From an uncultured Clostridia bacterium (lineage in GTDB: Bacteria; Bacillota; Clostridia; Oscillospirales; Acutalibacteraceae): a stretch of 64,000 nucleotides of DNA. Below the pieces are notes generated by a model. The model was not told where the DNA came from, did not search any database, and saw only the letters and a list, made by a program, of their open reading frames with translations. Positions within the stretch are counted from its first letter, which is position 1, and the number at the start of each line of letters is the position of its first letter. Shown here piece after piece: positions 745 through 47,158 of this stretch. The DNA lies in the NCBI GenBank assembly GCA_947589575.1, contig CANQBM010000005.1, positions 1 through 64,000 of the forward strand, written 5' to 3'. The translations under genes and the position numbers were made by a program.

Positions 745-3675
745 ATGAAAAAAATAATATCAATATTACTGTCGGCAACAATTATAATAGGCGGCAGCAT
801 AGCGATTCTTAACAACACTGATTTATCAGTAAGTAAAAAAGAATTAACCCGTGAATATGTCAGCAAAGCCGAGGCTGTGCAATTTGCCGATGAGGTTAAG
901 CAATTAGAAAATACAAAGGAGGCTGCTGATTGCAGACTAATTGTCAGCGCGGATAAGGAGATTGACAGTCAAAATGCAGTTCAGACGGCAACGGGAATTA
1001 ATGGACTTTATGTTATGCAGTACAGCAGTGAAAATGAAGCTAAAAAGGCTTATGATTATTACAATTCTCTTTCATATGTCAATTATGTTGATTACGATTG
1101 CTTTCAGGAAAACGCTATTTTGGAGTATTATAATGATGAAGAGCAGGATAATTTTGATTATAAAACACTATGCGCAAGTACGGCAAACTGTAATATTGAC
1201 GACGCAATAAAGCTTGTGCATCAAGAATATCCTGACCTGCCTGAAATGAAAGTTGCTGTATGCGATTCAATTGCATTTGTAAATAAATTTACTAGGGACA
1301 GAATTAAAGGAAGATATTCATTTTTTACAGACACATCGGGTGAAAATTCAACAGAAACGTATACACACGGAACATCCGTTTCAAGCACAATTATTCTAAA
1401 CACAATGGACAATGTTAAGTTATATACTTATGAACTAATAGATAAAAATAATAACACAAGTATTACGTATTGTATCTCTGCAATTTATCTTGCTGTCAGC
1501 GAGGGCTGCAGAGTTATAAATATGAGTTTAAAATATATTACTACCGTTACCAGTAACGCTGATGCGTTAAAAGAAGCAGTCAATTATGCAACAGAGCAGG
1601 GAACTGTTGTAGTATGTGCAGCAGGCAACGACTCCAAAGATTTAAGTACATATCACATGTATCCCGCTATTATTCCTAACGCAATCACTGTCGGTGCCCT
1701 TGACAGATCAAATAAGACATGTGATTTCAGTAATTACGGTAAAGTTGTTGATATATATTCAACCGGCTATGGTCTCACCCAGTATACAACATCAGGAGAC
1801 GACCTTTTTATGTGCTGGGCGGGAACTTCAGCGTCAACTCCGGTTGTTTCATCAATTGTCGCGTTATTACTTTCCATAAAACCGGATTTAACAGCGCAAG
1901 AAATTGAAAAGTTATTTCTTGAAACAGGTGATTCAACCAATGATTCCAACGAGTCAGAAGCCAACAAATTAATTTCGGATGCCTATGAGGCAGTAAAATT
2001 TTTGACAGGTAAAGAGCTTAAAGCGGTTTCTATTGAATATACATTAAATATAGATCCGGATAAAAATTCTTATGATTTATCCTTTTCAAGTGACGATGAT
2101 GCCACGATTTATTACAATACTGATTTTCAACGTCAAAGGCCTTGCAGACCGTTTAAGGATTATCAAAGACCTGCTGAATATGATTATTTATATGAAAAAG
2201 GTACAACCCTTAATTTTGGCGGATATCGTTCTTTGGCTCTATGCGCATATGCACCCGGTAAAGCAAAAAGTCATACAGAATTTATAATGGTGCCTAATCA
2301 AAACAAAAGCAGCGGTTTTACACTAACTAAATCCGATGATTCACAAGATTATAATACCGTTTCCTATTGCAACTTAAATAGCAAAATAATTGAAGTTCCG
2401 GAAGAAATTAATTATTTTGGAATTAATTATGAAATACAGGAAATCGGTGAATTTTGCTTTATGGGAAACCAAACGGTGGAAACAATTATTATACCTGAAA
2501 GCATTAAAAAAATTAACGCATATGCCTTTGCAAACTGTCCAAACCTGAAAAATGTTATTGCGCTTGGGGTAACAGAATGCGATAAATACGCTTTTTATGA
2601 CTGCGAAAATCTCACCGAGGTTAATATTCCTTATCTGACAACCGCAAATACCGGTTTATTTAAAAATTGCAAATCACTTGAAACGGCAAAACTCGGAGTG
2701 CTTACTCAAATCTGCAATCACGCCTTTTTCGGCTGTGAAAAATTAAAGTCAATTAAAACCACTAATGATGATATTTCATTTGCTTCAAGGACATTTTATA
2801 ACTGTAATCATTTAACAATTACTGCTCCTGACGGAAGCTCTATGGCAAATTGGGCAATTGAAAACAATATTCCTCTTATCACAACAGAGGAATCGGTATG
2901 CGAACATCCAAATATAGAAATTATAAAAAATATAGACAGTACCTGTACAAAGCAAGGTCTTGTTGTTTATCAATGCCCTGACTGCTATTACACGTATAAA
3001 GAATATCCTTCTATTTTGCCGCACCAATATATCTGCACATTCTACAGCGCAACCTGCACTGCATATGAACACAAGGTATTCACCTGTGAAAAATGCGGTT
3101 ATACATATACGGATATAACGGGCGACACATTACAACCTCACGAATTCAGTTATAGGATAACACGTTATCCTACATTAACAAGAACGGGGCGAAAGGGTGT
3201 TACCTGTTTGAACTGTAGTACAAAATTCCCCGATATAATTCTTCCCGCATTAGCTCCTAATACTGTTACAGGCAGAATTATCACGGCTGAAGACAGTGAG
3301 TACAACGCTCCTAATTCTTATCCGTTGGCAAATGCGAATATCACGATAAATAACGATTTGGTTGCTGTAACAGATGAAACAGGTATTTTTTCAGCTAATC
3401 TTGTAAACGGTGAATATACTGCGTATATCACTCATCCTAACGGAATTGACAGAAGCTTTACTTTCACTATTAACGACGGGTCTATATCAGTTGACGATAT
3501 TGCGGTAATTGCATGCGACTGGCACAAAGACGGCGTTATTAATGCCAAAGATTATGCAATGCTGTCAAAAAATTATATTGACAATATAAAAATATATGAC
3601 CTAAATCATGACGGAATAATAAACGAAATAGAGAAAAATATATTTATAAATACAATTACTAAAGAGCAACAGTAA
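745..3675 (+). CDS. Secreted S8 subtilisin-like protease with LRR, CxxC modules and dockerin
   Basis: Multidomain exoprotein of 976 residues. A signal peptide (MKKIISILLSATIIIGGSIA) starts at the ATG at 745, which has GGTGAT in front; an upstream in-frame ATG at 733 overlaps that site. The subtilase triad is visible: Asp174 in AVCDSIAF, His208 in THGTSVSST and Ser362 in GTSASTPV, with the oxyanion Asn in AAGND. Next come BspA-type leucine-rich repeats (about 520-710), two CxxC zinc-ribbon-like modules (about 719-835), a carboxypeptidase-regulatory-like beta domain (about 840-905) and a type I dockerin (about 915-972) with two calcium loops, DWHKDGVINAKD and DLNHDGIINEIE. Family knowledge suggests attachment to a cohesin scaffold outside the cell. 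No cohesin lies in the window. The gene is monocistronic and ends at a terminator. Confidence 0.9.
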   Translation: MKKIISILLSATIIIGGSIAILNNTDLSVSKKELTREYVSKAEAVQFADEVKQLENTKEAADCRLIVSADKEIDSQNAVQTATGINGLYVMQYSSENEAKKAYDYYNSLSYVNYVDYDCFQENAILEYYNDEEQDNFDYKTLCASTANCNIDDAIKLVHQEYPDLPEMKVAVCDSIAFVNKFTRDRIKGRYSFFTDTSGENSTETYTHGTSVSSTIILNTMDNVKLYTYELIDKNNNTSITYCISAIYLAVSEGCRVINMSLKYITTVTSNADALKEAVNYATEQGTVVVCAAGNDSKDLSTYHMYPAIIPNAITVGALDRSNKTCDFSNYGKVVDIYSTGYGLTQYTTSGDDLFMCWAGTSASTPVVSSIVALLLSIKPDLTAQEIEKLFLETGDSTNDSNESEANKLISDAYEAVKFLTGKELKAVSIEYTLNIDPDKNSYDLSFSSDDDATIYYNTDFQRQRPCRPFKDYQRPAEYDYLYEKGTTLNFGGYRSLALCAYAPGKAKSHTEFIMVPNQNKSSGFTLTKSDDSQDYNTVSYCNLNSKIIEVPEEINYFGINYEIQEIGEFCFMGNQTVETIIIPESIKKINAYAFANCPNLKNVIALGVTECDKYAFYDCENLTEVNIPYLTTANTGLFKNCKSLETAKLGVLTQICNHAFFGCEKLKSIKTTNDDISFASRTFYNCNHLTITAPDGSSMANWAIENNIPLITTEESVCEHPNIEIIKNIDSTCTKQGLVVYQCPDCYYTYKEYPSILPHQYICTFYSATCTAYEHKVFTCEKCGYTYTDITGDTLQPHEFSYRITRYPTLTRTGRKGVTCLNCSTKFPDIILPALAPNTVTGRIITAEDSEYNAPNSYPLANANITINNDLVAVTDETGIFSANLVNGEYTAYITHPNGIDRSFTFTINDGSISVDDIAVIACDWHKDGVINAKDYAMLSKNYIDNIKIYDLNHDGIINEIEKNIFINTITKEQQ

Positions 3676-3740
3676 TATAAATCCACCGTTTACAGCGCAA
3701 ATTCTCATTATTTAGTAATAAAAAACCGAACATTTACTCA

Positions 3741-3780
3741 AAAAGAGCAGGGATGCCATAAAAGCAACCCCGCTCTTTTT
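3741..3780. terminator. Bidirectional terminator between converging genes
   Basis: An inverted repeat AAAAGAGC-GGG ... CCC-GCTCTTTT with A-rich and T-rich flanks. It serves both the protease gene (plus) and the PepSY gene (minus), whose stop codons lie on either side. Confidence 0.8.
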
Positions 3781-3792
3781 ATATATTAAACT

Positions 3793-4686
3793 TTAATCAT
3801 AAACAGGTTCTGAGCTGTATTTAAGGATTTTTCCGTTAAGTGCGTTTACCTCATAATCATATTCGGTCCGCGACACAACAAATTCAATATCATAAACCCA
3901 TTGTCCGTCATCTTTTTCAAGTTTTACTTTTGTAAATAACGCATCACTTTTCTTTACCTTGCTGTGTGAAAGGGCAGCGTCTTTTGCTTTGTCTTCACCG
4001 ATATATTGTGGATTTTCGTTCTGTGTTGAAGCGGTTTTAGATGAAGTGTTTTCGTTAGTTTTGATTTTATCCGCGCTCCATGAGAGAATTGTTGCGTCAG
4101 CGCCTATTTCATAATCATACTTGTATCCGTTTGCGGTGAAATCTATTTCATATTGAAATACGCCGTTATCATAGTCCTGAACGGCTTTTGTAAATGCCGC
4201 GTCATTACTGTTTACTTTTGCATGCTCAAGAGCTATTGCCTTAGCCTTATCTAAAGATATTGCATTTTCGGGCGGTGTCGCGCCCTGTGTATTTGCTTCG
4301 GTTGTCAGATTATTATTTTGCTGACTTGTTGTCATATTTCTTGTTTCGGGAGCCGGTTCGGTAACGGCGCTATATTCACCGTCAATGTCTTTTTTTATTA
4401 CAGTTCCGTCTGAAGCCTTAATTTCATATTCAAATTCCGCCATATTAACATTAAATTCAACATCATATACAAGAACACCGTCCTCCAACGATAAATGCGC
4501 TCTTTGGCGGCTCGCTTTATCATTAGAAACGCCTGCGTCTGCAAGTGCGATTTCAAGCGCCTTGTCCTCGCCTATTGAGTTTCTTTCGGCAATATTTATC
4601 GCATATGCGGCAGCCCCGCCTCCTATCACGGCAACAGCGGCAATAATACATACGATTAAAATTATAAGTTTTTTAGTTTTGTTCAC
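3793..4686 (-). CDS. PepSY-domain membrane-anchored protein
   Basis: A 297-residue protein with a GTG start and a strong AAGGAGG site 8 bases upstream. Residues 7-29 form an uncleaved-looking signal anchor (LIILIVCIIAAVAVIGGGAAAYA). Three PepSY repeats follow (about 35-105, 140-210 and 228-295), each with the pattern I(G/S)-x-(D/E)KA-x-x-(I/A)AL-x-x-(A/S) and ending in V(Y/F)(D/Y)(V/I)-(E/D)F and YDYE(V/I). They are joined by Ser/Thr/Asn-rich linkers. PepSY domains are thought to restrain extracytoplasmic peptidases, so this may modulate an exported protease. The convergent subtilase next door is a tempting but unproven partner. The gene stands alone. Confidence 0.85.
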   Translation of the reverse strand: MNKTKKLIILIVCIIAAVAVIGGGAAAYAINIAERNSIGEDKALEIALADAGVSNDKASRQRAHLSLEDGVLVYDVEFNVNMAEFEYEIKASDGTVIKKDIDGEYSAVTEPAPETRNMTTSQQNNNLTTEANTQGATPPENAISLDKAKAIALEHAKVNSNDAAFTKAVQDYDNGVFQYEIDFTANGYKYDYEIGADATILSWSADKIKTNENTSSKTASTQNENPQYIGEDKAKDAALSHSKVKKSDALFTKVKLEKDDGQWVYDIEFVVSRTEYDYEVNALNGKILKYSSEPVYD

Positions 4687-4762
4687 TGTAAAACCTCCTT
4701 AATAACTAATAGTTTTATTGTTTACAAAAAAATAAAATATATAATTTTCTGAATTTTAATTC

Positions 4763-5401
4763 TTAATACCCTAAGTTTTCATTAACAATTATGACTTTTA
4801 TTCTGTCCTTATGACGCTGTTTTGCCGATATAACATAATTACAGCAAATACGCTGAGGACTCATACAGCCGTCACATATAAGCGGATTGTCATTCTTAAG
4901 GCTTATACATTTGCCTGTTGCCTCACACGGCGTCTTACAGGAAAGCCGTTTTGTATTCAAAGGAGCGGATTTTTCCTTTACACGCGTAACAGCTTCGTCT
5001 ATATCTCTGACAATTTTATTGATACCCACTATCATAATAACCTGCCTTGGTCCGTAAACAATACAAGCAACACGGTTTGAATTGCCGTCTACATTATAAA
5101 GCTCACCGTTTTCCGTAACAGCATTTGATGAACAGAAAAATGTATCGCATCCGAAAGCGCGAATATATGACTGCCTCAGCGCCTCACCCTCAAGTCCTGT
5201 TCTGTCTATAAAATCATAGTCGCCGGATTTCAAAAGGTCCGAAACACCTGTTTCTTTCAGAGTCTCTGAACCGCCGTTTGACACACTTTCGCCCTTATGA
5301 ATAAGAGTTTTAACAAGCGGAACTACATCATCCTTTGTTTCAACAAAATACGGCTTAATTCCATTTTTATCCAAATTTTCCATTACCTTATTAATGTTCA
5401 T
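4763..5401 (-). CDS. LUD-domain protein (lactate utilisation/LutC-like)
   Basis: A 212-residue LUD (DUF162) domain protein. The family hallmarks are SVSNGGSETLKE near residue 40, a DRTG motif, SSNAVTENGELYNVDG in the middle and a conserved GPRQVIMIVG strand. The C-terminal third carries a cluster of cysteines (KTPCEATGKC, ICDGCMSPQRICC), as in the short stand-alone LUD proteins of Clostridia; the Cys pattern suggests a metal or Fe-S site. The start is set at the ATG at 5401, which has GGAG 8 bases upstream. A GTG nine bases earlier overlaps that ribosome site. It lies 18 bases downstream of the ComM-like gene, probably in one transcript. The precise reaction is unknown. Confidence 0.85.
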   Translation of the reverse strand: MNINKVMENLDKNGIKPYFVETKDDVVPLVKTLIHKGESVSNGGSETLKETGVSDLLKSGDYDFIDRTGLEGEALRQSYIRAFGCDTFFCSSNAVTENGELYNVDGNSNRVACIVYGPRQVIMIVGINKIVRDIDEAVTRVKEKSAPLNTKRLSCKTPCEATGKCISLKNDNPLICDGCMSPQRICCNYVISAKQRHKDRIKVIIVNENLGY

Positions 5402-5419
5402 AAAACCCACTCCTTATGA

Positions 5420-6955
5420 TTATGTTTCGTCATTATTCCAGTACTTCCTGTCAAGAGAACGATACTGAAGCGCTTCAGCGATATGACCAGCCCCAATATC
5501 CTTGCTTGCGTCCAAATCGGCAATAGTTCTTGCTATTCGCAATATCTTGTCATATGCTCTGGCGGACAAGCCGAGATTTTCAAAGCTCATTTTAAGAAGG
5601 GAATCAGCCTCTTCTGTAAGCAGGCAGAATTCTTTAGTCATTCTCGGAGTCATCTTTGCATTACATCGAACACCTGTACCCTTAAACCTTTCAAGCTGAA
5701 CTGCTCTTGCCTTGTCAACGCGTTTCTTGATTTCGCGGGAGGACTCCTCAGGTTTTCTGCAGGAAAGGCTTTCATATTCAACAGGCGCCACTTCAATATG
5801 TATATCAATCCTGTCGAGTATCGGACCAGATACCTTATCCATATACCGTTTTCGTGCTGCGGGGGTACATTTGCACTCCTTTGTCGGATGACCGTAAAAA
5901 CCGCAGGGACAGGGATTCATTGACGCAACAAGCATGATGTTTGAAGGATATGTAACCGAACCCGATGTTCTTGAAATGTTCACAATCCCATCCTCAAGAG
6001 GTTGACGCAATGCTTCTTTGCATCGTCTGTCAAATTCGGGAAATTCGTCCATAAACATAACGCCGTTATGGGACAGGCTGATTTCGCCGGGTCTGATAGT
6101 TACTCCTCCGCCTGTAAGCGCCTGAGCAGAAACGGTATGATGAGGCGATCGAAAAGGTCTTTTATCAATAACCGCCTTATCTTTCGGAATGGCTCCCGCT
6201 ATTGAATATAGTTTTGTAGTTTCAAGCTTTTCGTCAAAGGTCATATCAGGAAGAATTGTCGGCAGACGCTTTGCAAGCATTGATTTTCCCGCGCCAGGAG
6301 GACCTATCATAATACAGTTGTGACCGCCTGCCGCCGCAATCTCCAAAGCACGCTTTGCCTCTGCCTGCCCCTTAACATCTGAAAAATCAACACTGTAATT
6401 GACCTTTGTTTCCGTCAAAGCGTCATTATAGCAAGAACTGATCTTTTCAGAACCCGATATATGTTTCATAACCTCAATAACATTTTTGACAGGCAGAACA
6501 TCTATTCCGTCCAAAACACTGCCTTCAAGCATGTTGTCATAAGGTATAAACACTGCGGATATACCTTCCTCCCTTGCCTTTAAAAGCATGGGAAGAACTC
6601 CGTTGACACGCCTGATATAACCGTCAAGCGACAACTCGCCGATAAAGGCGAAATTGTCAACATCACCGTTTAACTGTCCGCTTGCCTTAAGTATGGCAAT
6701 GAATACAGGCAGGTCATATAGCGAACCTTCTTTTTTTATATCAGCGGGAGCGATATTGACTGTAATCCTTGATACAGGGAAATCAAAATGACAATTTTTA
6801 ATTGATGCACGCACACGCTCACGGCTCTCTTTAACAACTGCATCGGGAAGTCCGACTAAATCAAAACGCGGTAAGCCGCGGCTTATATCACATTCAACGG
6901 TAACGCTGAAGGAATCCAAGCCGAAAATGCCGAGACTTTTCACCTTTGCATACAT
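5420..6955 (-). CDS. comM: ComM/YifB family Mg-chelatase-like AAA+ ATPase
   Basis: A 511-residue protein of the YifB/ComM family, helicase-like AAA+ ATPases involved in branch migration during natural transformation. It has an N-terminal Lon-like fold (residues 1-165), Walker A GPPGAGKS at about 218-225, Walker B MFMDEF, a cysteine cluster NPCPCGFYGHPTKECKC typical of the family, and the C-terminal Mg_chelatase_C region (LSARAYDKILRIARTIADL). Three ATG/GTG codons cluster at the start; 6955 (MYAKVKSLGIFGLDSF) matches the family's usual N terminus and follows AGGTGAT. No dprA neighbour is present. It is transcribed divergently from the phosphomutase gene. Confidence 0.92.
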   Translation of the reverse strand: MYAKVKSLGIFGLDSFSVTVECDISRGLPRFDLVGLPDAVVKESRERVRASIKNCHFDFPVSRITVNIAPADIKKEGSLYDLPVFIAILKASGQLNGDVDNFAFIGELSLDGYIRRVNGVLPMLLKAREEGISAVFIPYDNMLEGSVLDGIDVLPVKNVIEVMKHISGSEKISSCYNDALTETKVNYSVDFSDVKGQAEAKRALEIAAAGGHNCIMIGPPGAGKSMLAKRLPTILPDMTFDEKLETTKLYSIAGAIPKDKAVIDKRPFRSPHHTVSAQALTGGGVTIRPGEISLSHNGVMFMDEFPEFDRRCKEALRQPLEDGIVNISRTSGSVTYPSNIMLVASMNPCPCGFYGHPTKECKCTPAARKRYMDKVSGPILDRIDIHIEVAPVEYESLSCRKPEESSREIKKRVDKARAVQLERFKGTGVRCNAKMTPRMTKEFCLLTEEADSLLKMSFENLGLSARAYDKILRIARTIADLDASKDIGAGHIAEALQYRSLDRKYWNNDET

Positions 6956-24566: not shown

Positions 24567-24692
24567 ATGAAAGAAACGTATTTAAAGCCTGTTGCAAAAC
24601 TTGATGAATTTAAAACCGTCGATGTAATTACAACAAGCTACGGCGACGGCGGTGAAGGTAATGTTGACGGCGGTGATGAAGATTTAGGTTAG
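24567..24692 (+). CDS. Small leader-type peptide A (41 aa), RiPP-precursor-like
   Basis: An ATG with GGAGGTG seven bases upstream opens a 41-codon frame. The N-terminal half reads MKETYLKPVAKLDEFKTVD, then VITTS; the C-terminal half is Gly/Asp/Glu-rich (YGDGGEGNVDGGDEDLG). The first half matches the second small peptide in this window (42.87-42.99 kb) at most positions (MKExYxKP, EFxTVDxI), while the tails differ. A conserved leader plus variable tail is what RiPP precursors show. No maturation enzyme is adjacent; the next gene is an esterase 130 bases on. The role is inferred, not shown. Confidence 0.6.
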   Translation: MKETYLKPVAKLDEFKTVDVITTSYGDGGEGNVDGGDEDLG

Positions 24693-40876: not shown

Positions 40877-41965
40877 TTAAACTCCATAAATTTTCTTTAT
40901 CTGCTCATAGTAAACTTTTTCGTCTGCAAAATCGGATAATCCGCCGAATTGGCTCATTGTTCCTATAAGCGGTATGTTTTCAAATACTGTACCTTTTAGT
41001 TTCTCAACGGTTGCGTCAACGAACTTATCTGCAAAGATAACCTTTATATCTCTGCGAAAATAAGATTCAACACTATACTCAACCTTGTCCGTGAGTCCGC
41101 TTGCATTATGCAAATCCGCAACAAGTGCCTGCGCTTCAACAAGGTTGTTTTCTCGTTCCGTCAAATCATTTGCTTTTAGAGCGGAATTGATTTTTTCCTT
41201 AATGTTTTCATCAATGTCTAATTTATTGAAAGCTGTTCCAAACCATTTACTGTATGGCGCGTATGTATCTTTATACAAGAAACACAATCTCATTAATCTT
41301 TCGGCAATTCTTGCGCAAATAATTTGTGAGCCAATTTCATCACCGACCTCACCGCAACGCTTAACAAAGGCTTGTTCAGATGCGATTATGTTCCATTGTG
41401 ACGCGATAAGATATAATTTAACCTCATCAGGATAAAACTTTATTTTATCTGTATGTTTTCTGATATTCAGCCTGTCCACAAACAACTTGCCAGATACCAA
41501 CGATAATAACCTATGCTCCGAAAACGCAAGCCAATCCATAGGTGATATATTATCTAAATCAGCAGTGCCGATTTCATCAATAAGAAATTCATTAAATGTC
41601 TGAATGAATATCAATGGATTAACTTTGCCATTGTTAATAAACTTCGGATGCTGAACACCGTTGTCATTCGGATCAGGATCAGTAAAATTTACACTGTAGC
41701 CCATATATTCATAAGGGAGATTTTCCGCAAACTTGTTGAATATTTCGTCTTTTTCATCTATATCTTTATCGCACAGGAACATATAGAAACGAGGTCCCCA
41801 CATATGGTCACGGGAAATCTTGTCATCATAGCCGAGAACGTCAGAACCGTAACCAATTAACCCTGCTGAATATTGAAGATTCGGAAAATATTTATCAATA
41901 ATAGGCTTTGCGCATTCATTAAAAAATTTCTCGCACAATTCCAACCCTTTTATAAATTTAGTCAT
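40877..41965 (-). CDS. DUF4037 nucleotidyltransferase-like protein
   Basis: A 362-residue protein with a nucleotidyltransferase-like N-terminal part: AGLIGYGSDVLGYDDKISRDH, then MWGPRFYMFL, which places the Gly-Ser and downstream acidic residues of the fold. The helical C-terminal half includes LDNISPMDWLAFSEHRLLSL. DUF4037 proteins occur widely in Clostridia beside small regulators; the transferred group is unknown. It overlaps the upstream 119-residue gene by eight bases and is two bases from the GNAT frame, so translation is coupled. Confidence 0.86.
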   Translation of the reverse strand: MTKFIKGLELCEKFFNECAKPIIDKYFPNLQYSAGLIGYGSDVLGYDDKISRDHMWGPRFYMFLCDKDIDEKDEIFNKFAENLPYEYMGYSVNFTDPDPNDNGVQHPKFINNGKVNPLIFIQTFNEFLIDEIGTADLDNISPMDWLAFSEHRLLSLVSGKLFVDRLNIRKHTDKIKFYPDEVKLYLIASQWNIIASEQAFVKRCGEVGDEIGSQIICARIAERLMRLCFLYKDTYAPYSKWFGTAFNKLDIDENIKEKINSALKANDLTERENNLVEAQALVADLHNASGLTDKVEYSVESYFRRDIKVIFADKFVDATVEKLKGTVFENIPLIGTMSQFGGLSDFADEKVYYEQIKKIYGV

Positions 41966-42317
41966 TTTTACCTCTGAATTTTAAAAACATTTCTTTATTG
42001 TCTATCAACCGCTTTGCCGCTGTACATGCAGAGCAATCGCAATATTTAACACCGTTTTCAATTAAACTTTCGTGATAGATACGCAGACGTTCAGCATTTT
42101 CGTTACCTAAAATCTTTTTACCATTTTTGGAAGAGAAAAATTTTATAACCTCTTCATTAGTCATAAGATCCTCCTCTGCCTCGGCAATCAACGCCTTTGC
42201 ATAATTGGATTCCTTATCTGTGTTGACAGATTTCAAATAATTTTCCGCCGCCGTTTTTAGTTCGGGGCAGGTTATATCGGCATATATAATTGCCTTAACC
42301 ATGTCTTCTTTTGTCAT
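41958..42317 (-). CDS. Small conserved protein with CxCxxC motif, partner of DUF4037
   Basis: A 119-residue, mostly helical acidic protein ending in a CDCSACTAAKRLIDNKE segment that could bind a metal. Such proteins often precede DUF4037 genes in Firmicutes and are annotated inconsistently. I do not assign a function. First gene of the six-gene operon: downstream genes overlap or abut it all the way to 39122. A hairpin lies just upstream of its start. Confidence 0.7.
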   Translation of the reverse strand: MTKEDMVKAIIYADITCPELKTAAENYLKSVNTDKESNYAKALIAEAEEDLMTNEEVIKFFSSKNGKKILGNENAERLRIYHESLIENGVKYCDCSACTAAKRLIDNKEMFLKFRGKND

Positions 42318-42423: not shown

Positions 42424-42690
42424 TCACTCAACAATAAGGTTGTTATCTCTAAGCATTTTAACAAAGTTCAAAATATCTTTTCGTGCCGTTTCCTCATCAA
42501 CCTCATATTCATCAGTTACCATTTTTACGGCGTCATCAATCGTAATATCGTTGCAAAAACAATCCCAAAAAAATGCCCCGCTTTCATTAAGCGTAATCAT
42601 TCCGTTAAATTCCCTGACGGCTTTTCCCACAGGGACGACTATTTCTTCGCCTGCTATATTTCTTTTTGCAAATCCGTCTTTTATTTTCAT
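42424..42690 (-). CDS. PqqD family protein (stand-alone RiPP recognition element)
   Basis: An 88-residue PqqD-like protein: MKIKDGFAKRNIAGEEIVVPVG (strands 1-2), NGMITLNESGAFFWDCF (the conserved LN-x-(S/T)(G/A)-x-x-(L/F)W block) and a helical DAVKMVTDEYEVDEETARKDI with the closing LRDNNLIVE. PqqD domains bind leader peptides of ribosomally made peptides and present them to modifying enzymes. GAGG lies nine bases before the ATG at 42690. It has its own promoter. The nearest peptide gene is 180 bases upstream on the same strand (42.87 kb). No radical SAM or other maturase is in the window. Confidence 0.88.
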   Translation of the reverse strand: MKIKDGFAKRNIAGEEIVVPVGKAVREFNGMITLNESGAFFWDCFCNDITIDDAVKMVTDEYEVDEETARKDILNFVKMLRDNNLIVE

Positions 42691-42749: not shown

Positions 42750-42836
42750 TAGCTGTTCTGCACCAAGAGCGGTATTACAATTCTGTGTGCAATCATTCAA
42801 ATTATTCTTTTTATTTTTATTATTACATCCTTAACT

Positions 42837-42866
42837 AAAAAAGAGCGGCATTTCTGCCGCTCTTTT
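42837..42866. terminator. Terminator behind the small peptide B gene
   Basis: AAAAGAGCGGCA-tttc-TGCCGCTCTTTT, strong in both orientations, seven bases after the peptide stop. Confidence 0.88.
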
Positions 42867-42872
42867 CAATTA

Positions 42873-42986
42873 TTATTGTTCATCCGGTGGAACAATATTC
42901 TCAATTTCACCGCTTGTTGTTGCAATAATATCAACTGTATTAAACTCTTGTATCTCAGTTGACGGCTTTGTATAAAACTCTTTCAT
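42873..42986 (-). CDS. Small leader-type peptide B (37 aa), RiPP-precursor-like
   Basis: An ATG with AAGGAGA upstream opens a 37-codon frame: MKEFYTKPSTEIQEFNTVDI, then IATTS and the tail GEIENIVPPDEQ. It shares MKE-x-Y-x-KP, EF-x-TVD-x-I and a Thr/Ser pair with peptide A at 24.57 kb, while the tails are unrelated apart from acidity. It starts 29 bases after the stop of the giant surface-protein gene and is followed by a terminator, so both are on one transcript. The PqqD-like gene lies next downstream. A modified-peptide precursor is a reasonable inference; a plain small protein is the alternative. Confidence 0.62.
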   Translation of the reverse strand: MKEFYTKPSTEIQEFNTVDIIATTSGEIENIVPPDEQ

Positions 42987-43015: not shown

Positions 43016-46000
43016 TTATAATGCGTCGTAATCAAACGGTTCAAAGTCGGTATAAACAATTTCTGTTACACCTGAATTTGACTGATCAACGTAAGCAAGG
43101 AATGCTCTTGCATAAATCTTACCTGCCTGTGATGTACGACCTAAGTTCAACGCAAATTGCTCTACCTCTGTTGTACAATAGCAGGCTTTGATTGACGACC
43201 TGTCTACGTTGCCAAGGGTAAGCTCGCCGGTGTCAGCGCTGGTACTGTATATGAAACCGGCATTTACATATGTATAACCCTCTACCATTGTACGTGTAGC
43301 AAGGAAAGATGCCTTGATATTACCATCCGCGCCGATTTGGGTTGTAGAAACAGCGGCCACCGCAGGGGTTTCTGTTACACTTTCAGTTTCAAATGTGAGT
43401 GTAACATCGGCGCCTAAATAGAAGGTGTATGACTCGCCGTAAGCAACGATTGTGTCGCCTATCTTCCAAGCCTTTGCACCGGGCGCTGTTACCGTTACCA
43501 GAGCACTGTAAATGATTCCGTCAAGCTCATCCTGAGCTTCACTGTCAGGAGTTGAAATGGTTGCTCCGACTGCGGTCACTTTATATGTTTGGTCGGCATT
43601 TATCTCATAATTAGCATAAATCGTTGCGGCTGATGTAAGAGCATGAATCTGCTCATCTGTTAATGACCATCCGGTAAATGTTTGGCCTGCTACAACGGGA
43701 CCATCGGGAATTACAATTTCATCGCCGCTTGTTACAGTCTGCGTATTAAAAACATTACCATACTTATCCGCAAATACAACTGTAAACTCTGAAAATTCAT
43801 CCTCCTGGAATATAGGCTCATATGTAATATCGGCAAGAACTGTGGCACTATGAGGATTATTGTTTTTTCCGCCGCCTAAAATCGCGTTGTTAACCATCCA
43901 GCCAATAAATGAGGAACCGTCAATAGGTGTAGCCGTAAGAACAATCTGTGTATCATAATCAGCATGAATATTCAAGTTTGCTGTGCCGTACTCGGCTGCC
44001 GGAACACTTTCTGTGGTAAGAACGCCGTTTTTGTAGTACTGAACTTCCGTTGAACCAAGCGGATTGGAAACTATTGTTACATTCGGATTAAGGGCCGGAA
44101 TTTCACTGCCTCCCTTTGTCTGACCGCAAACAGTACACTGGTAAATGGCCTCCTGACCCGGTACACCGACTTTCGGAGGAAATCCTGAATCTATCTCATC
44201 CCATGTGCATGGAACTTCCGTTGTGCTGTCGCATCTTGTACACTGTACTGTATGGTTCTCACCGTCAGTACCCTGTGTAACTGAACCCTTGTAATCGTGA
44301 CCGAGTGCGGGAGCTGATTTATCAGGAGTAATCACCTCCGAAACAAGAGCCTCGCAAAGTGAACAATAAACTCTCATTATATCAGAAGCTCCCTCTTCAC
44401 AATTCGGCTCTATTCTGTCGTAAACAGGCTCACCGGGTTTGTGATAAGATAAATCAAATGAGTACGTTTTCTTAGCGTCGTTAACTGTTACAGTTGTCAC
44501 TGCAGACTCATCATCAAGTGAATATCCTTCAGGAGCGGTAACAGCTATTGAATAATCACCAAACGGAACTGTAACCGATACTCCATCCTCGTTAAGTTCA
44601 ATCTCATTTCCCTGTGAATCAGTAACAGTGTATTGAACATTATCTATCGCGTTGCCTTTACAATCAGCTATATTAATATCAATATTAACAAAATATCTTG
44701 TGTCTATATAACGGAAATCTTCATTTATATCCTGAGATATAGCGTTGTTTACTTCCGTAACAAGTCCGCCGATTGCGTCTGCAAGATTTTCATATCTGTT
44801 ATAATAACCGTCTAAATTATTTCTGATATTATCAAGAACATTTGAAACCTGATTATCCTCTCCGAATATTTCACCGACGAAATCAATAACATTTCCAAGT
44901 ACATAATCAGCATATTCATTAAAATCAGTAAAGGCATTTCCGATTTGCTCTTTGTACTGTTCAAACTGCTCCTCTGTAACAATGAATTCGGTTATATCAA
45001 CATCAAAACGATTGTTAAGAGCGTCAACAATTACAGGGAAGATAACACCTGTGCTTACATATGCCGTTCCGTCATTATTGAGCGTAAATGTAAGAATTGT
45101 AGAATTTCTATCATATCCAAAAGGAGCCGAAGTCTCAATCATAATATATGAGCCTGCTTTAAAGCCTGTTGTAACATTAATATTATCGCTCATTTCAGCA
45201 AGCTTAGTAAGCAGCGGTAAATATTCTTCCGGAATAACATTGCCGAAAACTGACTCAATCACCTGTGCAAGCTGCTCACCTGAAACAACGCCGCTGTCCA
45301 GAACAGTACCAAGTGTATTTAACATATTTTTGGAATTGTTCAGCTCAACAAGACCGGTTTCGTCAGAGGTTGACGTTAAAATTGCCGGTATTGTAATTTC
45401 GGGAAGAAGTGAAGGATTTATAGTCGCAATCGAAAGAATAAGTCCGATAATCGTTCCGACATCAATGTTGGACCAGTCTGTGCCCGAAAGCTGCTCAAGA
45501 ATGCTGTTAAAATCCAATCCGCCAACGATGTCAGGCGCCGCTCCTGCCAAATCTTTTACAAACTGAATAAGTCCGTCTCTGTCAATCAGCAAGAAATCCG
45601 CGCCCGCTACCGGCTCGTCATTCTGGTCAACCTTATGGAAGCTGATTGAGATGCTGTTGTTTTTAAATACCTTAAAGGTTGCCCCAAAGCTGTAGGTATT
45701 ATTTGTTAACGCTGTGTAAGAGCCAAAACTGGATTTTGCAAATTTATCACCTGTTACAGCTCCGTCCTCTCTTGCGACGTTAAACTCGTACGCTGTCTTA
45801 TCAACTACAAATCCATCTTCACTGGAAGTCTGCTGAATTGTGTATGTACCGTACTTCAATCCGGAAAATACATACTTTGTAAATCCGATAGAACCTAAAA
45901 TCGGTATACTGTAGCTGTCATTTTTTACTTCAAAAGTATAATCTCCAAGTCCAGTCTCCTCATCAACAGGAGTAAGAAGCTTTCCGTTGCTGTCACGAAT

Positions 46001-47158
46001 TTCAAAGTTCGCGCCGTCATAAGCTACGGGAAGAGCTCCGTCATAAAGCATAAAATCAACTGTAAAGCTGCCTGTAGGAGCAGGGGCAAACACGGCGTCA
46101 AAAGCTATATCCTTGAGAGCCGAAACAGATTCGGACTCATAAACGTATGTATGCTCTGTAACCTCTTTAAAACCGTGCGCCTTTGCTGTGTATGTAAGGG
46201 TTTCCGTGTCATCGCTCCACATGCTCTGGTCAGGAAGCATAGAAGTAACATCAGTATCCAGAACAGCCGTTTTGCCTGTTAAAGTCTTAATATTCTCAGT
46301 AAGAACTCTGTACGCAAGCCTTATCATACTTGTCTTAACATTGTTAATAATAGCTTCCCTTGCAGTTTTCTTTGTTGTGCTGTTGCCGTCTGCCGGTTTA
46401 TTGCTTGTTTCAACATCCGCACCAAGCTCATAACCTTCAATTCCGATTGTAACATTGGCGCTGAATATATTAAAAATACTCTTTTTATTATAACTCTTAT
46501 CAATACTGTAAGTTATATCATATTCTTCAAGAGAATCGGTTACATAGGTAAATTCCTTTTCCTCAACAGAATATTCGTTATTACCAAGAGCATTCTTTGT
46601 CTGAACCGCATCCCAAGCCTTAACAGATGTAAGCTTATCTTCATCATATGCCTTGCCGTCTTCATCCTGGTAAAGCGTAACGGTTTTATCCTCACCGCCT
46701 GTTGCCGCATTATATTCAGCCGAAGTGATTCGCTGTCTTTCACCGCCGTCAACAGTTACGAAATATTCCTTATTTGAAAATTCGCCCTCCTGAGGATCGG
46801 TTTCCTTAATAAGAGCATACTTGTCATTGTCGTACGCGAGTCTCTTAACGCTATAATATGCGCCGTCAGGAATGTCGCTGATAACAGCGCTTACGTTGTA
46901 CGGCATTGTGAGATAGCCGTCAGTAACGTCATAAGTTTCAGCGTCGCTGCCAACCGCAGTTCCGTTGTACGGCTGACCGTCAATTTCAATATAGTATGTA
47001 AATTCTATACCGCTGTCTATTTCAACATCCGATACACTGACATTTGAAGAAATTTTAATTCCATCATTCTCTGCCGCAAATGATACAAAAGGTAAATTAC
47101 ATGTCAACATTAGGACAGATAAAATCAGTGCTATACTTCTCTTAAAAGACTTTTTCAT
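43016..47158 (-). CDS. Large secreted surface protein with prealbumin-like and CxxC modules
   Basis: A 1380-residue exported protein with signal peptide MKKSFKRSIALILSVLMLTC followed by NLPFVSFA. Beta-rich SpaA/Cna-B-like modules fill the first half (for example ISFHKVDQNDEPVAGADFLL near residue 500). A Cna-B-like module lies at about 820-900. CxxC modules lie at about 919-1020 (YCSLCEALV, VQCTRCDSTT, YQCTVCGQTK). Bacterial repeat regions follow at about 1040-1180, including an InlB-like VFNTQTVTSGDE ... FTGWSL. The C-terminal 170 residues are unassigned. No LPxTG, SLH or dockerin is seen, so the anchor is unclear. GGGG lies unusually far (13 bases) from the ATG. Co-transcribed with small peptide B. 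Confidence 0.85.
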   Translation of the reverse strand: MKKSFKRSIALILSVLMLTCNLPFVSFAAENDGIKISSNVSVSDVEIDSGIEFTYYIEIDGQPYNGTAVGSDAETYDVTDGYLTMPYNVSAVISDIPDGAYYSVKRLAYDNDKYALIKETDPQEGEFSNKEYFVTVDGGERQRITSAEYNAATGGEDKTVTLYQDEDGKAYDEDKLTSVKAWDAVQTKNALGNNEYSVEEKEFTYVTDSLEEYDITYSIDKSYNKKSIFNIFSANVTIGIEGYELGADVETSNKPADGNSTTKKTAREAIINNVKTSMIRLAYRVLTENIKTLTGKTAVLDTDVTSMLPDQSMWSDDTETLTYTAKAHGFKEVTEHTYVYESESVSALKDIAFDAVFAPAPTGSFTVDFMLYDGALPVAYDGANFEIRDSNGKLLTPVDEETGLGDYTFEVKNDSYSIPILGSIGFTKYVFSGLKYGTYTIQQTSSEDGFVVDKTAYEFNVAREDGAVTGDKFAKSSFGSYTALTNNTYSFGATFKVFKNNSISISFHKVDQNDEPVAGADFLLIDRDGLIQFVKDLAGAAPDIVGGLDFNSILEQLSGTDWSNIDVGTIIGLILSIATINPSLLPEITIPAILTSTSDETGLVELNNSKNMLNTLGTVLDSGVVSGEQLAQVIESVFGNVIPEEYLPLLTKLAEMSDNINVTTGFKAGSYIMIETSAPFGYDRNSTILTFTLNNDGTAYVSTGVIFPVIVDALNNRFDVDITEFIVTEEQFEQYKEQIGNAFTDFNEYADYVLGNVIDFVGEIFGEDNQVSNVLDNIRNNLDGYYNRYENLADAIGGLVTEVNNAISQDINEDFRYIDTRYFVNIDINIADCKGNAIDNVQYTVTDSQGNEIELNEDGVSVTVPFGDYSIAVTAPEGYSLDDESAVTTVTVNDAKKTYSFDLSYHKPGEPVYDRIEPNCEEGASDIMRVYCSLCEALVSEVITPDKSAPALGHDYKGSVTQGTDGENHTVQCTRCDSTTEVPCTWDEIDSGFPPKVGVPGQEAIYQCTVCGQTKGGSEIPALNPNVTIVSNPLGSTEVQYYKNGVLTTESVPAAEYGTANLNIHADYDTQIVLTATPIDGSSFIGWMVNNAILGGGKNNNPHSATVLADITYEPIFQEDEFSEFTVVFADKYGNVFNTQTVTSGDEIVIPDGPVVAGQTFTGWSLTDEQIHALTSAATIYANYEINADQTYKVTAVGATISTPDSEAQDELDGIIYSALVTVTAPGAKAWKIGDTIVAYGESYTFYLGADVTLTFETESVTETPAVAAVSTTQIGADGNIKASFLATRTMVEGYTYVNAGFIYSTSADTGELTLGNVDRSSIKACYCTTEVEQFALNLGRTSQAGKIYARAFLAYVDQSNSGVTEIVYTDFEPFDYDAL

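Follow-up and report, generated by a model that had tools for sequence, protein, structure and literature searches.

The 37-residue open reading frame found behind the gene of a giant surface protein in an uncultured Clostridia bacterium is probably the precursor peptide of a RiPP pathway resembling that of the linear polyphosphorylated peptides (LPPs), with the genes of the pathway dispersed over the genome and the precursors hitched to surface-protein genes. The window, that is, the whole stretch of 64,000 nucleotides that was analysed, contains the features listed below; the last entry gives the homologues of the peptide in its own genome:

42873..42986, minus strand: 37-residue YxxP leader-type peptide (MKEFYTKP...DIIATTSGEIENIVPPDEQ), from the ORF, its homologues and dN/dS.
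43016..47158, minus strand: 1380-residue exported surface protein (SpaA, InlB-type repeats), from a signal-like N terminus and Pfam.
43019..43408, minus strand: C-terminal domain of the 1380-residue protein, a predicted beta-sandwich (pLDDT 84.9), from a similarity group and structure prediction.
42836..42866, minus strand: hairpin AAAAGAGCGGCAGAAATGCCGCTCTTTT of 12 pairs with a T run, a likely terminator between the peptide and PqqD.
42424..42690, minus strand: stand-alone PqqD, or RiPP recognition element (RRE), type I (Pfam E 3e-17).
24567..24692, plus strand: second family peptide MKETYLKPVAKLDEFKTVDVITTSYGDGG..., with no giant protein before it, from homology search and dN/dS.
C19:18119, C1:155972, C1:410998, C5:24567 (within the window) and C18:12848: clear own-genome homologues beyond the window ORF, from homology search.

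The reading frame runs from 42986 to 42873 on the minus strand and encodes MKEFYTKPSTEIQEFNTVDIIATTSGEIENIVPPDEQ in 37 codons. The initial annotation had described it as a peptide with a strong ribosome site, co-transcribed with the 1380-residue protein and followed by a stand-alone PqqD, and both neighbours are indeed where it placed them, the surface protein 29 nt upstream and PqqD downstream. A GGAG does precede the ATG, at a rather long spacing of 12 nt. The short gap between the stop codon of the surface protein and the peptide start suggests that the two genes share a transcript; on the other side, the hairpin and T run between the peptide stop and PqqD (a terminator candidate that the hairpin scan entered on the plus strand, its T run being read from the minus-strand sequence) mean that PqqD is probably transcribed separately, and a single operon of peptide and PqqD is therefore unlikely. 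Behind PqqD, also on the minus strand, follow a 119-residue protein with a cysteine motif (41958-42317) and a DUF4037 protein (40877-41965); a very similar DUF4037-type protein also occurs in the sister genome G069 at locus L268, where the giant protein (1296-5439) lies in two frames with a gap.

Searching Pfam and NCBIfam with the window peptide gave no match, and the case for a real gene comes from its relatives. Its own genome holds six clear copies, the window's included, and one divergent copy; the genus-wide search found matches in 34 of 41 genomes, and the peptide is present in 42 of the 51 genus genomes that are at least 90% complete, these two sets overlapping. In four of five peptide pairs compared with sister sequences dN is smaller than dS, the changes being few and one pair trimmed. 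A chance reading frame is ruled out by this family conservation. Outside the genus, seven genomes from other families of the order gave no peptide match with the smaller profile A1. One of the own-genome copies, C18:12848 (L036:1483-1605), has no ATG, GTG or TTG in frame and may thus be a relic.

The family consensus reads MKExYxKPxxExxEFxTVDVITTS followed by an acidic tail, and the clear own-genome copies align as MKExYxKPxxEIEEFKTVDVITTS, again with a short acidic tail. Tyr and Pro are invariant across 23 aligned rows and YxxP is found in 35 of 35 named peptides, so that the leader-like N terminus proposed earlier can now be specified as a YxxP leader, of the kind bound by PqqD-type RREs; its YxKP segment matches leaders to which the RREs of lasso and LPP pathways bind. 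The segment (D/E)(V/I)(I/L)xTS is nearly fixed and its conserved Ser is present in all 35 named peptides, at position +19 from the Tyr, or +20 in the window copy; past this Ser, the tails measure 9–18 residues, and 15 of the 35 contain no further Ser or Thr. Judged by its sequence, the window copy is an atypical family member, with its best-conserved stretch one residue longer (DIIATTS against the family's DVITTS) and, as the sole exception among the five pairs, a dN of 0.165 above its dS of 0.092 against the sister sequence. Tandem peptide pairs follow a single giant protein at L013/L032, L014/L027 and L031/L037. Small lipoproteins adjoining peptides (L006:1627-2136 and L013:1520-2092) end in ...DSEGWINRWY and ...DKDGWITKWY, and the end of the L032 peptide, ...DDEGWIDKWY, resembles these tails, as if it were a common C-terminal tag.

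The association with giant proteins extends well beyond the window, a family-wide coupling that the initial annotation had not noted. We examined 35 named loci from Clostridia MAGs, which come from related genomes and are thus not independent, and in 31 of them a large frame of at least 437 residues ends no more than 140 nt upstream of the peptide; at L067 and L072 the gap of 131–136 nt contains a tandem peptide. At L061 the upstream frame is cut by the contig end, with its last 44 residues visible, and the loci without a large upstream frame are L053, L056 and L059. Among the 28 complete frames of the 31, a hydrophobic N-terminal stretch scores at least 2.0 in 26, by a crude scan in which the three exceptions L053, L056 and L059 score 1.8–2.2. 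Compared over their last 130 residues, 29 of the 31 frames group by similarity with one another and with the window protein, and L063 and L064 make up a second group. None of the 31 carries LPxTG in its last 60 residues, and a fold search with the C-terminal domain brought up beta-sandwich structures as weak matches, all of them with E above 0.001. One weak match of this domain, at C1:306602 of the own genome (E 0.026), served as a forward test: AGGAGG stands a few bases past its stop, and then comes a YxxP peptide, MKKNYAEPEIEILFLNNSSESG..., which is divergent, lacks DVITTS and had been missed by the peptide profile. At L005, L017, L020, L026 and L031 a gene convergent to the giant protein–peptide pair encodes what we take to be a LytR-CpsA-Psr-like protein.

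As for the link to PqqD, the presence of the peptide tracks that of a stand-alone PqqD across the genus: among the 51 genomes at least 90% complete, the peptide occurs in 42 of 43 with a stand-alone PqqD and in 0 of 8 without it (Fisher 1.4e-8, not corrected for kinship), and in the 41-genome set, where PqqD matches in frames of about 470–510 residues were left out, it occurs in 34 of 36 with PqqD, while the five lacking PqqD (G004, G022, G026, G029 and G042) are all peptide-less. The family is thus conserved in related genomes and co-occurs there with PqqD, and the connection suggested by the initial annotation stands at the level of the genome; the adjoining PqqD, on the other hand, need not be the partner. 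The own genome has two PqqDs, and one adjoins just one of the six clear peptide copies; PqqD mostly lies at other loci than the peptides, and we found at least seven peptide–PqqD pairs closer than 10 kb, chosen by eye among the matches listed. The close order giant protein–peptide–PqqD is seen in the window, in G069 and in G058; L294 has two genes in between, and at L141 a giant protein precedes PqqD with no peptide between them by eye. We rejected the neighbouring PqqD as a fixed partner. Of the genomes without a peptide match, G066 is 95% complete and has PqqD and, by position, NTP_transf_5, and G024 and G027 are 73% and 68% complete.

The residues of the PqqDs point the same way. In LppB, the recognition protein of the LPP pathway, the residues that hold YxxP by its Pro kink and its Tyr are N33 and D70, according to the available part of PMC13381572. 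With positions mapped through PDB chain 9x8z_B, and with PqqDs sorted into types in part from their gene neighbourhood, the N33 position is N in 59 of 59 type I–III PqqDs and the D70 position is D in 57 of 59, which supports a YxxP-binding role like that of the LppB residues.

The suggestion that a modifying enzyme acts from elsewhere in the genome has gained candidates: an NTP_transf_5 protein, an HprK-like kinase, an SpI-like peptidase and an ABC transporter. We examined 62 PqqD loci, in 61 of which the profile detected PqqD, the other being L183 with its fused copy. NTP_transf_5 comes directly after PqqD in 26 of the 61, adjoining LepA (one LepA being cut by the region end), and HprK-like kinase genes of one cluster are present in ten PqqD loci. 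An NTP_transf_5 orthologue (above 240 bits) is found in 35 of 41 genomes, the six without it all being peptide-less. A homologue of the HprK-like kinase, with a P-loop, is found in 34 of 41, and the own genome has a stand-alone one at C2:136936. The kinase label is based on likeness to the kinases of L191 and L192 and on a weak PEPCK match (E 0.13), and Pfam and NCBIfam returned nothing specific for these proteins, which makes it the weakest part of the pathway assignment. The SpI-like peptidase occurs in 35 of 41 genomes; the own one (G000:C3:38822-39223) shares 38% identity with the L191 SpI, which itself matches TIGR02228 at E 2.9e-7, below that family's cut-off. The SpI loci fetched, 20 of 20, have an ABC transporter after SpI, and these transporters all belong to one cluster. 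Counted over the 41 genomes as both peptide and component, component alone, peptide alone and neither, the figures are 34/1/0/6 for the NTP_transf_5 orthologue, 33/2/1/5 for the SpI-like peptidase and 32/2/2/5 for the HprK-like kinase of either kind; the genomes with the peptide and no match are G021 for SpI and G003 and G025 for the kinase. In the own genome, the pathway components are spread over contigs C1, C2, C3, C5, C18 and C19. Many precursors at scattered loci served by one trans-acting enzyme set are known from the prochlorosins, which differ in their lanthipeptide chemistry and are not known to have each precursor tied to a surface protein.

At a few loci these genes stand together. 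L192 (G036) carries on one strand NTP_transf_5, an ECF-like protein, a 992-residue exported protein, the peptide MTRYSDPEFKVVITPSEDILTAS..., a lipoprotein, an HprK-like kinase and PqqD. L191 (G039) has the precursor MRITNPEINVILFSNEDVIATSGIEP..., PqqD, an ABC transporter, an SpI-like peptidase, an HprK-like kinase and NTP_transf_5, and these are, as classified here and compared with the available part of the LPP report, the core LPP gene kinds. The L191 precursor has no Tyr before NP, and the L191 PqqD has A where others have D; this pairing of losses is fitting, as a single case. In L183 (G041:C4, 2337-13283), kinase and PqqD occupy one open frame of 398 codons, together with NTP_transf_5, an SpI-like protein, two ABC transporters, a radical SAM gene and a LanM-like gene (DUF4135 and LANC_like), so that the whole looks like a composite RiPP-like cluster. 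In L270 (G059:C33, 4752-6670), a radical SAM gene and then PqqD stand behind a Cys-containing YxxP peptide, MEKYVRPEMEIDFVEGCEILTTSFVGC..., which itself does not lie behind a giant protein. The contents of L183 and L270 suggest that the leader type is common to more than one kind of locus, and with radical SAM in L270 and radical SAM plus LanM-like in L183, its members need not all follow one chemistry.

The initial annotation had envisaged an undescribed kind of locus, and this has to be scaled back, given that the kind of pathway is not wholly new: the LPPs were described by Popov et al. 2026 (PMC13381572), and the comparison that follows draws on the available part of that report. The LPP leader consensus is, in full, YxxPxVLxHQxIxFETxxS, in which the polyphosphorylated Ser stands 18 residues after the Tyr, and cleavage takes place after Thr-1; the biological role is unknown by the discoverers' own statement. 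Shared with the genus are the YxxP leader, the variable C terminus, the one or more precursors, a discrete RRE with N33/D70-type residues, an NTP transferase (NTP_transf_5) with an RRE, an archaeal-type SpI-like leader peptidase and an MsbA-like ABC transporter. LPP also has an HprK-like kinase, whereas the homologue here is assigned by likeness, a family-level match being absent. Several features differ: the genus leader EFxTVDVITTS has neither HQxI nor FET, the distance from Tyr to Ser is larger than in LPP by one residue (two in the window copy), the genes are dispersed singly or in pairs rather than held in one biosynthetic cluster, the cores are acidic and much shorter than that of LppA, which has 45 residues, and the precursors lie behind giant surface-protein genes instead of at capsule loci. 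As neither the full leader motif nor the clustering is found, we call the system LPP-like and not LPP. Paeninodin-type lasso systems share a PqqD-family RRE, an HprK-like kinase and an NTP transferase, and differ in their WxxP leader, ring-forming core, cyclase and B2 peptidase, as far as the available parts of PMC13381572 and PMC7533575 describe them; at the LppB N33/D70 positions the paeninodin RRE carries G and Q, against N and D here (PMC13381572). Within the portions of the literature available, our searches found no published report of this arrangement of precursor and surface protein, and a term search of the available part of PMC12710340 returned nothing on orphan or stand-alone genes, surface protein, nucleotidyltransferase or HprK.

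Besides an LPP-like precursor, other readings of the peptide have to be weighed. It could be an unmodified small partner of the giant protein that helps in assembly, anchoring or folding, with the RRE, NTP_transf_5, kinase and SpI serving other precursors; the placement of peptides close behind giant proteins and of PqqD usually elsewhere would suit this, yet no signal peptide is seen by eye on the family peptides, and the YxxP motif, the fitting RRE residues, the co-occurrence of PqqD with the peptide and the linked locus L192 all speak against it, so that we consider this rather unlikely, while still the one to be taken most seriously. A by-product of lineage gene content, in which one clade lost or never had unrelated accessory genes, is improbable for the co-occurrence, and the LepA tree is what speaks for it. 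In this tree of 40 genomes (G004, with no LepA match, is absent), the four lacking genomes G022, G026, G029 and G042 form one clade with support 82/53, so a single event may account for what they lack together, and three changes are required on the tree for the six rows without a peptide; NTP_transf_5, the kinase and the peptidase are also absent from the peptide-less clade, and in G022 the methyltransferase gene lies 1.1 kb from LepA, with the orthologous NTP_transf_5 and PqqD absent there. PqqD and peptide loci are, besides, mostly unlinked. Nevertheless, the missing genes are of the kinds found in LPP clusters, they are physically together in L191, L192 and L183, and the RRE residues fit.

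The peptides might also be RRE-dependent precursors undergoing other chemistry, for example by radical SAM enzymes, with the LPP-type genes serving something else. Radical SAM genes lie by PqqD at L270, L190 and L183, the one in L270 between the YxxP peptide and PqqD, and the own genome has a frame of radical-SAM-like appearance at a distance of 1.3 kb from its PqqD II. Nothing corresponding to this last frame is seen, however, at the other PqqD II loci used for comparison, and the L270 peptide has cysteines, whereas 28 of the 29 others listed, the window's included, have none or one (27 none, 2 one). A radical SAM protein, one of the enzymes for which the initial annotation had suggested looking, adjoins both the peptide and PqqD in only one of the genomes looked at (G059, at L270), and since the LPP-type genes co-occur with the peptide family, we give this chemistry little credit. 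A lasso peptide precursor would agree with the YxxP leader and with the PqqD matches to NCBIfam lasso_PqqD, all of them below cut-off; the tails are, however, too short and irregular, judged from sequence, for a ring of 7–9 residues plus a threaded tail, and this reading is very improbable.

The modification, cleavage and function of the LPP-like precursor that we favour are inferred by analogy. The RRE would bind YxKP, the HprK-like kinase would phosphorylate the conserved Ser, NTP_transf_5 would add a further group, the SpI-like peptidase would remove the leader and the ABC transporter would export the acidic core, the product of which may then work at the cell surface with the giant protein from the same transcript, a surface role to which the gene order points. 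More tentatively, and less likely than not, this could be a general surface-maturation system, in which every giant protein would be produced along with an RRE-recognised peptide of its own; shared trans-acting enzymes would phosphorylate or glycosylate this peptide, and after export it would become a part, bound or covalently joined, of that protein or of the means by which the protein is anchored in the wall.

If this surface-maturation proposal is true, the system would be a RiPP pathway that dresses adhesins rather than making a free natural product. LPP-like precursors coupled to giant surface proteins suggest a role in the cell envelope, with a testable partner. A pathway dispersed in this way would probably escape cluster-based RiPP mining, so that gut Clostridia may commonly have similar systems that go unnoticed.
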